Shown here: positions 3,356-6,516 of the stretch, piece after piece | How the letters are laid out: each line of letters opens with the position of its first letter | Position numbering within the stretch: the first letter of the stretch is position 1 | Assembly (NCBI GenBank): GCA_903901905.1 | Contig: CAIUSQ010000289.1 | Span: 1-6,519 of the forward strand | Source: an uncultured Actinomycetes bacterium | GTDB taxonomy: Bacteria > Actinomycetota > Actinomycetes > Nanopelagicales > Nanopelagicaceae | Length of the DNA stretch: 6,519 nucleotides | Direction: 5' to 3' | Translations under genes and position numbers: made by a program | Notes under the pieces: generated by a model | Databases searched by the model: none | What the model was told of the DNA's origin: nothing | Seen by the model: only the letters and a program-made list of their open reading frames with translations

Positions 3356-4660
3356 ATGAGTGCAGATAGAAGTAAGCAGCAAGAGTTCGTCCTTCGAACC
3401 CTAGAAGAGCGCAATATTCGTTTTGTTCGTTTGTGGTTTACAGATGTTTTGGGCTTTCTTAAATCTGTTGCAATTGCGCCAGCTGAATTAGAAAATGCAT
3501 TTGATGAGGGAATTGGATTCGATGGTTCTGCAATCGAAGGCTTTGCGAGAATTACCGAATCTGACATGTTGGCAAAGCCTGATCCTGCAACGTTTTCCAT
3601 TCTTCCTTGGCGCACCGAATCACCGGGTGCAGCCAGAATGTTTTGCGACATCGCACTTCCTGATGGAACATCTTCACCGTCGGATCCACGTAATGTCTTG
3701 CGTCGAATTTTAGAAAAATCAACCAAAATGGGTTATGCCTGTTACACACATCCTGAGATTGAATTCTTCTTGTTTAAGAAAGCACCTGAAGTCGGTGTTG
3801 CTCCAGTTCCTGTTGATCAAGGTGGATATTTTGATCACACTCCAGCGGTGGTTGGCCATGACTTCCGTCGACAAGCAATTACATTACTTGAGGCCATGGG
3901 AATTAGCGTTGAGTTCTCTCATCATGAAGGAGCTCCGGGTCAACAAGAGATTGATCTGCGTTATGCGGATGCGTTAACGACTGCAGATAACATCATGACT
4001 TTTCGCCATGTCATAAAAGAGGTTGCATTAGATCAAGGCTTCCATGCATCGTTTATGCCAAAGCCATTTACCGATCACCCAGGTAGTGGAATGCACACGC
4101 ATGTTTCATTATTTAAAGGTGAAGAGAATGCATTTTTTGATGCCGATGCAGAGTTTAATCTTTCAAGCGTAGGCCGCTCGTTTATAGCCGGACTAATTAA
4201 GCACGCACCAGAGATCACTGCAATTACTAATCAGTGGGTTAACTCTTACAAACGTTTACATGGCGGGGGAGAAGCACCTGCATACGCAAACTGGGGCCAA
4301 AGTGATCGTGGGGCGCTAGTTCGCGTTCCAATGTATAAACCTAAGAAAGAAAACTCAACGAGAATTGAATTTCGATCACCAGATACAGCGTGTAATCCAT
4401 ATTTGGCGTATGCAGTTATGTTGGCAGCAGGTCTAAAGGGAGTTGAAGAAAAGTACATTCTTACCGACTCAAAGGATCCTGTCGTCTTGCCATCAAACCT
4501 GAATGAAGCGATTATTGAGATGGAAAAGAGCGAATTAGTGCGAGAGACCTTGGGCGAACATGTCTTTGAGTTCGTACTTCGAAACAAGCGCGCTGAATGG
4601 CTGGAATACAGCCGCCAAGTAAGCGCATTTGAACTCGATCGTTATTTGCCAGTCCTTTAA
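3356..4660 (+). CDS. glnA: Glutamine synthetase, GlnA2-type, without the adenylylation loop
   Basis: Type I glutamine synthetase fold: glutamate + ammonia + ATP to glutamine, normally a cytoplasmic dodecamer. The 434 residues include FDGSAIEGF (55-63, the Asp50-type latch), PEIEFFLF (133-140) with the first metal-binding Glu residues, HHEGAPGQQEID (189-200), GMHTHVSLF (245-253), NQWVNSYKRL (292-301), GGEAP (303-308, the Glu327-type flap residue) and RIEFRSPD (336-343). The sequence is closest, from memory, to mycobacterial GlnA2 (opening RTLEERxIRFVRLWFTDVLGFLKSVAIAPAELE). Around residues 366-380 it reads KYILTDSKDPVVLPS, where GlnA and GlnA2 proteins carry a longer segment (NLYDLPPEE in E. 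coli), so the adenylylation Tyr and its loop are absent. It therefore should not be controlled by GlnE. Streptomyces GlnA2 was reported to act on polyamines, so a gamma-glutamylpolyamine ligase role cannot be excluded. The -35 of the leu promoter lies inside its 3' end. Confidence 0.92.
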   Translation: MSADRSKQQEFVLRTLEERNIRFVRLWFTDVLGFLKSVAIAPAELENAFDEGIGFDGSAIEGFARITESDMLAKPDPATFSILPWRTESPGAARMFCDIALPDGTSSPSDPRNVLRRILEKSTKMGYACYTHPEIEFFLFKKAPEVGVAPVPVDQGGYFDHTPAVVGHDFRRQAITLLEAMGISVEFSHHEGAPGQQEIDLRYADALTTADNIMTFRHVIKEVALDQGFHASFMPKPFTDHPGSGMHTHVSLFKGEENAFFDADAEFNLSSVGRSFIAGLIKHAPEITAITNQWVNSYKRLHGGGEAPAYANWGQSDRGALVRVPMYKPKKENSTRIEFRSPDTACNPYLAYAVMLAAGLKGVEEKYILTDSKDPVVLPSNLNEAIIEMEKSELVRETLGEHVFEFVLRNKRAEWLEYSRQVSAFELDRYLPVL

Positions 4661-4675
4661 TTCAAGCGTTACCCT
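4646..4675 (+). promoter_or_regulatory. Promoter of the leu leader-leuA transcript
   Basis: TTGCCA (4646-4651), an 18-base spacer, TACCCT (4670-4675), then six bases to the leader ATG at 4682. The -35 matches TTGACA at five of six positions and the -10 fits TANNNT. Transcription would start at the leader ATG, giving a leaderless leader ORF. The -35 is in the last codons of glnA, and the -10 is just past its stop. Confidence 0.6.
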
Positions 4676-4681
4676 TAACTC

Positions 4682-4729
4682 ATGAGAAAGAGCAGCCTCC
4701 TCCTTAGCTGCCGTGGCGGGGCCAAGTAA
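4682..4729 (+). CDS. Leucine leader peptide upstream of leuA
   Basis: A 15-codon ORF, MRKSSLLLSCRGGAK then TAA, with three consecutive Leu codons (CTC CTC CTT, 4697-4705) immediately ahead of the leucine biosynthesis gene leuA. No SD precedes its ATG, and a -10 box lies six bases upstream, so it is probably translated from the 5' end of the mRNA. Ribosome speed over the Leu codons would report leucyl-tRNA charging. The Leu codons overlap the anti-SD sequence CTCCTTA (4700-4706). One Cys codon follows the Leu run at 4709-4711. The peptide is presumably only a sensor. Its role is inferred from position, codon content and the surrounding RNA structure. Confidence 0.8.
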   Translation: MRKSSLLLSCRGGAK

Positions 4730-4777
4730 CCGGTCCCCTCGCTGCGGAGTTTTGTCGTACCGGTTAAAAGACAAAAC
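4727..4777 (+). promoter_or_regulatory. H-type pseudoknot in the leuA leader
   Basis: Hairpin stem GTTTTGTC (4749-4756) with GACAAAAC (4770-4777), eight perfect pairs, loop 4757-4769. Eight further pairs join TAACCGGT (4727-4734) to ACCGGTTA (4759-4766), which lies inside that loop, so the two stems interlock as an H-type pseudoknot. The first stem begins on the leader stop codon TAA, so a terminating ribosome would unfold it. ACCGGT is also self-complementary, so dimer or local alternatives exist. Confidence 0.75.
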
Positions 4778-4787
4778 CCGCCAAATT

Positions 4788-4794
4788 TAAGGAG
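4788..4794 (+). promoter_or_regulatory. leuA ribosome binding site
   Basis: TAAGGAG followed by six bases (CAGTAA) and ATG at 4801. A strong SD that fixes the leuA start. It is the exact reverse complement of 4700-4706 in the leader peptide's Leu codons. Confidence 0.88.
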
Positions 4795-4800
4795 CAGTAA

Positions 4801-6516
<1,716 letters not shown>

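Follow-up and report, generated by a model that had tools for sequence, protein, structure and literature searches.

A LEU element upstream of leuA in an uncultured actinobacterium: leader leucine codons that co-vary with the leuA Shine–Dalgarno sequence, and a probable translational switch

In an uncultured, freshwater-type Actinomycetes bacterium of the family Nanopelagicaceae, a short reading frame with three consecutive leucine codons lies upstream of leuA. The question raised by this locus is whether one sequence can act both as a sensor of leucine and as a lock on the translation of leuA. The whole stretch of DNA that was analysed, 6519 nt of contig CAIUSQ010000289.1, is referred to as the window, and its features are listed in Table 1. 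The original prediction held that the bases CTCCTTA in the leader leucine codons are, letter for letter, the reverse complement of TAAGGAG, the Shine–Dalgarno sequence (SD) of leuA, and this was confirmed at the positions given: the seven exact complementary bases are joined by an eighth, G.U, pair, and the ATG of leuA is 6 nt 3' of the SD. A single window is weak evidence because a seven-base match could be chance, and it is the comparison with relatives that carries the case.

Table 1. Features of the leuA leader region (window coordinates)
Feature	Position	Strand	Evidence or remark
−10-like TACCCT	4670..4675	+	6 nt 5' of leader ATG
Leader ORF, MRKSSLLLSCRGGAK*, 15 aa	4682..4729	+	ATG at 4682
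Leu codon run CTC CTC CTT, proposed sensor	4697..4705	+	Codon-position test
Anti-SD CTCCTTA, 5' strand of base stem	4700..4706	+	Sequence, fold, swap tests
Hairpin P1, 5' arm, in leader codons after Leu run	4711..4721	+	
Pseudoknot, 5' strand, loop AACCGGT	4728..4734	+	Loop × downstream swap test
Hairpin P1, 3' arm	4737..4747	+	
Hairpin P3, GTTTTGTC/GACAAAAC, pseudoknot partner in its loop	4749..4777	+	Folds
Pseudoknot, 3' strand ACCGGTT	4759..4765	+	Loop × downstream swap test
leuA SD TAAGGAG, 3' strand of base stem	4788..4794	+	Sequence
leuA, 2-isopropylmalate synthase, 571 aa	4801..6516	+	

The leader of the window and its transcript

The window holds a newly found LEU element, and the anatomy of this element has been in print since 2005, when Seliverstov, Putzer, Gelfand and Lyubetsky named the element and stated the pairing of Leu run and SD (PMC1262725). 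The likeness extends to the upstream ORF with its Leu run, the base stem formed by Leu codons and leuA SD, the pseudoknot, the regulated gene and the phylum. The same authors state that how the actinobacterial leuA leader acts was not known. No Rfam family (riboswitch, T-box or leader) matched the window up to an E value of 1. The LeuA protein of the window is 88–91 % identical to the best 120 of 8000 scored matches, among which Candidatus Planktophila dulcis is one named source, and on this protein similarity the window is placed near Candidatus Planktophila.

In 265 of 270 elements, from the set of 274, a TANNNT motif was located 3–12 nt 5' of the leader start, compared with 9 of 270 when the same search was shifted 45 nt upstream, the leader start codons having been picked with this motif in view. 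Its position just before the leader start predicts a leaderless leader mRNA, beginning at about 4682 in the window; a sigma-70 scan did not find a full promoter at the −10-like sequence. The minimum-energy fold of the inferred leaderless transcript (4682–4820) has the base stem, with pair probabilities of 0.92–0.96, enclosing two inner hairpins, which may correspond to the alternative hairpin fold that the LEU element has on the same stem. The base stem was absent from the fold of 4660–4820, a range that includes bases probably not transcribed.

Terminator-like sites were not detected on the + strand between 4600 and 4860, and one was detected on the − strand. This result bears on transcriptional control, in which transcription would end early or continue depending on the leader and hairpins, by a Rho-dependent or another route, with the SD pairing as a secondary matter. 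Several authors term the leuA leader an attenuator: the leuL1 leader of S. lividans (MRFGLLLLSCRGEGL; PMC8079986), cg4015 of C. glutamicum, with four consecutive Leu codons before leuA (PMC4046766), and the leu leader of C. diphtheriae (MNRANLLLLRRGGSQA; PMC5784534) are all described in this way and are homologous to the leader of the window. In M. tuberculosis, RNA species of 85, 65 and 45 nt were seen on Northern blots upstream of leuA (PMC3526491), which suggests short transcripts. However, a U-tract terminator was not found on the + strand in the range scanned, the leaderless LeuL1 leader is likewise reported to be without a typical terminator (PMC8079986), and transcriptional control leaves the coevolution of the SD pairing, given below, unexplained. 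We consider it rather unlikely.

Conservation of the element and the genes that it precedes

A leader of this type was present in 78 of 81 leuA loci (80 loci and the window). It was missing in L011, L061 and L019, of which the L019 sequence begins inside the gene. The contig of L019 is titled as a Bifidobacterium breve MAG and encodes a LeuA 99 % identical to that of the window over residues 172–571; it is probably a mis-assigned freshwater contig. A covariance model, R1, for which 55 of 76 core stretches were used, matched 52 of 61 genomes in the family of Planktophila versatilis (G001), with one match per matching genome. Class and phylum counts, which include weak matches (E near 1e-5) and for which just the best candidates per genome were scored, so that absences are not firm, were 235 of 246 genomes in the class of P. 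versatilis and 24 of 198 genomes drawn from its phylum, five of these 24 (G066, G100, G078, G038 and G082) resting solely on matches judged to be chance. Third and fourth matches of some genomes were examined in part. Weak matches at L104–L108, L113 and L237, which no leucine gene follows, were judged chance and stand outside all pairing counts.

From 277 elements, three without a recognised gene (L258, L265 and L289) were set aside, giving 274 elements, 251 of them unique; the swap set of 244 unique elements also leaves out seven elements that the 274-element set includes. L258 was later placed before leuB–ilvE, and L265 and L289 of this first listing are the same places or genomes as the later L290 and L289. 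Among 192 match places, 24 precede leuC and five precede leuB (two of these five being the same place), and nine elements precede LeuA-like genes of below 60 % identity, that is, diverged leuA copies. The leuC elements include L183, L185, L187, L190, L191, L193, L195, L197, L201, L204, L207 and L231, and several have long matches to their own SD, such as TCCTTCTTC with GAAGAAGGA in L231.

With leuB downstream, 12 loci were obtained (L296, L298, L300, L302, L305 and L308–L314), and ilvE follows leuB in nine of them, the fetched stretch being short in some. In place of a leucine run, these leaders have VRIL (eight loci, including L302), VVIL, VLIL, ALIL or LVIL: all 12 have mixtures of valine, isoleucine and leucine, and none has LLL. 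VRIL leaders are also present in two further genomes (L289 and L290), for which the fetched stretch did not show a leuB. A conserved small ORF of about 27–32 aa (like MTEEQQKAQQALQEAMDRRDNGGETGH) was noted after the leuB-type leader in L296, L298, L300, L305, L310, L311, L290 and L289. No earlier description of the leuC, diverged-leuA or leuB elements was found in searches of an open-licence library.

Pairing within the element is also conserved. In an alignment of 55 sequences, 97.2 % of P1 cells were paired and both sides had changed in four of 11 pairs; for the second helix, the partner of which is poorly aligned in this fixed alignment, 61.6 % of cells were paired. When the P1 loop was paired with the downstream stretch in no fixed register, native partners reached −12.12 kcal/mol and swapped partners −10.00 kcal/mol (z −14.9, 242 elements), and within 40 genomes the own partner was better in 27 cases and worse in nine. 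The switch had been pictured as a single helix between codons and SD, and this bare form does not hold, as P1 and the pseudoknot are conserved as well. A P3-like stem was counted, without a control, in 33 of 41 elements of the family, and P3 in the window presents ACCGGTT in its loop. On the folds, the pseudoknot may take the form of a kissing loop in the family of the window.

A compact conserved hairpin with a pseudoknot would also suit a binding site for a regulatory protein (orthologs of ML1624), for which translation of the leader would be irrelevant; this was proposed by Seliverstov et al. from phylogenetic co-occurrence and mutant data (PMC1262725). However, the ORF is kept, with its start codon near TANNNT in nearly all elements, and the amino acids of the run follow the operon (leucine before leuA and leuC; valine, isoleucine and leucine before leuB), which a protein-bound RNA does not require. 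Since the ilvE transaminase serves all three branched-chain amino acids, a mixed run before leuB is what an amino-acid sensor predicts and a protein-binding RNA does not. On this evidence protein binding is quite unlikely.

Co-variation and codon choice in the leader

In the swap test, the duplex energy of each Leu run with its own SD was compared with the energies obtained when SDs were exchanged among elements. Own partners paired more strongly than swapped partners (−10.31 versus −9.34 kcal/mol; z −7.2; 0 of 10 000 permutations; 244 unique elements). The preference was also detected for leuA alone (z −6.2, 214 elements) and for leuC alone (18 of 10 000 permutations, 26 elements). It was not detected for four leuB starts, nor for the SDs of the leuB-type small ORFs in eight cases (native −6.9, swapped −7.1); matches to the SD seen by eye were CTCATC with GATGAG in L199/L312 and CATTCTT with AGGAATG in L305 and L310.

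Descent was addressed in two ways. Within 40 genomes with two or three elements, not all independent as many are from one family, 29 favoured the own partner, nine a swapped one and two neither (P=0.001). On a FastTree LeuA tree, 55 leuA pairs joined by paths sharing no branch, a design that controls for descent, gave a better own partner in 40, a worse one in 12 and an equal one in three (P=1.3e-4). At least seven contiguous Watson–Crick pairs between Leu run and SD were present in 37 of 242 unique elements compared with a mean of 7.5 % when SDs were exchanged among relatives, and at least five contiguous pairs in 171 of 242 compared with about 60 % of swaps. A single-base independent-pairs test over supported branches gave a median P of 1 at −9 and 0.625 at −12, and a form restricted to C and T leaned against coevolution; this test has little power because C to T changes retain a G.U pair. 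The comparison with relatives indicates that the base stem is maintained. Synonymous changes that destroy the pairing, named at the outset as what would count against the idea, are not the rule, as changes tend to be matched; exceptions are the nine genomes and 12 pairs with a worse own partner, and L230, which has CTA codons and an SD without a match.

A preference for the own SD was likewise recorded for the P1 3' arm, in leuA elements (z −5.2) and not in leuC elements (z −1.3), in a comparison that does not control for kinship. On this sequence preference the arm (4737–4747 in the window, and its counterparts in relatives) might be a second lock. P1 3' arms are CTCGTC-like, and SDs such as GACGAGGAG resemble the leader GACGAG.

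Codon choice was analysed in 78 loci, with expectations taken from the same leuA genes. At the two paired Leu positions CTG was found in eight of 77 and two of 78 loci, with 38.1 and 38.5 expected, while at the outer Leu position it was at background level (16 of 23, expected 14.4). A check of codon choice against the SD in homologues had been suggested with the original prediction; its outcome, from the swap and codon tests together, is that leader and SD co-vary and that codons are constrained where they are paired. For the third base of the middle codon, 200 of 251 elements could be assigned a pairing register. An A in the leader is opposite T in three of three cases, a G is opposite C in seven of 10 (CTG cases that may largely be one clade), a C is opposite G in 67 of 123, and a T, in 64 cases, is opposite A in 29 and opposite G in 28. 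The Watson–Crick share was 0.53, compared with 0.41 when swapped (60 swaps, highest 0.49). Five distinct elements have CTA, three of them placed in register, and L005 pairs CTCCTACTT with AAGTAGGAG.

The complementarity could be no more than a by-product of pyrimidine-rich Leu codons and purine-rich SDs, and swapped partners do still pair well, as the mean swapped energy and the share of swaps with at least five contiguous pairs indicate. This reading is disfavoured, and we regard it as very improbable: the own partner is better overall, in leuA alone, in leuC alone, within genomes and in disjoint pairs, CTG is avoided at paired and not at outer positions, and CTA faces TAG as CTG faces CAG.

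The last Leu codon is CTT in 76 of 78 loci, with 6.4 expected, and co-variation with the SD is absent at the third base of this codon (0.53 versus 0.52 swapped). The fixation of CTT without co-variation indicates that a second constraint acts at this codon, perhaps slow decoding. CTC and CTT are decoded by one tRNA-Leu, and that this tRNA was picked as a starvation sensor may in addition act at the last codon; as the sole source of codon choice it is hardly credible, given CTG at background in the outer codon and SD changes matched to CTA and CTG codons.

Proposed mechanism and comparison with known systems

The comparison with relatives shows a complementarity that coevolves, a codon choice that depends on position, hairpin P1 and the pairing of the pseudoknot; the stall, the response to leucine and control at translation initiation are inferred. 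The LEU element of the window probably acts as a translational attenuator. Its transcription would start at the leader's own start codon. With leucine plentiful, a ribosome would read the 15 codons and depart. The Leu run would then base-pair with the SD of leuA, kept close to it by the intervening hairpin and pseudoknot, and leuA would be translated at a low level. With leucyl-tRNA short, the ribosome would stall on the Leu codons and cover them, and the SD would be freed.

This scheme was modelled by folding 229 leuA and leuC elements with a ribosome footprint, the footprint size and leaderless start being assumed. On average, opening the SD took 5.8 kcal/mol in the free RNA, 5.3 kcal/mol when a ribosome stood at the stop codon, and 2.7, 2.8 and 3.3 kcal/mol when it stood on the three Leu codons. 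Compared with the stop state, a stall on the middle codon left the SD more open in 180 elements, less open in 40 and equal in nine. When the Leu codons were replaced by CTG in silico, opening the SD cost less, 3.5 kcal/mol in the free RNA and 4.0 kcal/mol in the stop state. In the window itself the effect of the stall is small, 1–2 kcal/mol: the cost was 2.2 kcal/mol free, 0.1–0.9 stalled and 1.2 at the stop codon, or 3.1, 1.9–2.2 and 2.6 kcal/mol, respectively, with 17 bases of leuA included. Such folding supports a stalled-ribosome switch without proving it; the switch is a plausible mechanism and the one that fits best.

Published mutants bear on the same point. Changes in the leuA leader of S. 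coelicolor, as cited in PMC1262725, had some effect that was not consistent with classical attenuation, and elsewhere in that paper Leu-codon mutations are said not to influence regulation. Perhaps these data disagree with a stall switch since Leu-codon changes alter sensor and lock together. More tentatively, with belief and doubt close to balance, LEU-type elements in general may be leaderless, terminator-free translational attenuators, near-universal in the class of the window, in which the sensing codons are the anti-SD. They may have spread to leuA, leuA paralogs, leuC and leuB–ilvE, the sensor having changed to Val/Ile/Leu in operons that also encode the transaminase, and the older mutant data would be puzzling as a mutation in the sensor is a mutation in the lock.

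The descent-controlled evidence of coevolution and the wider set of target genes are what this analysis adds. Together, Leu codon/SD coevolution and leaders that follow the operon make a specific translational switch directly testable. Leu-codon mutants, past or future, need careful reading, as sensor and lock are inseparable without compensation.

In its treatment of the LEU element, PMC1262725 favours a protein-bound element and leaves the mechanism open, whereas the co-variation and V/I/L leaders described here favour translation of the leader. Mechanisms overlapping the ribosome binding site are mentioned in PMC4833913, with citation of Lopatovskaya 2010. Of the better-known systems, two share part of the proposed design of the window. 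Trp-type transcription attenuators also have a leader in which the regulated amino acid is abundant; they depend on a terminator and an antiterminator hairpin, whereas an intrinsic terminator was not found on the + strand of the window at 4600–4860. In erm-type translational attenuation, as proposed for the window, a ribosome that stalls while making the leader peptide uncovers an SD that is otherwise sequestered. However, the stall of the erm type is caused by an antibiotic and its anti-SD is distinct from the sensing codons, whereas in the switch proposed here the anti-SD would be the sensing codons themselves.
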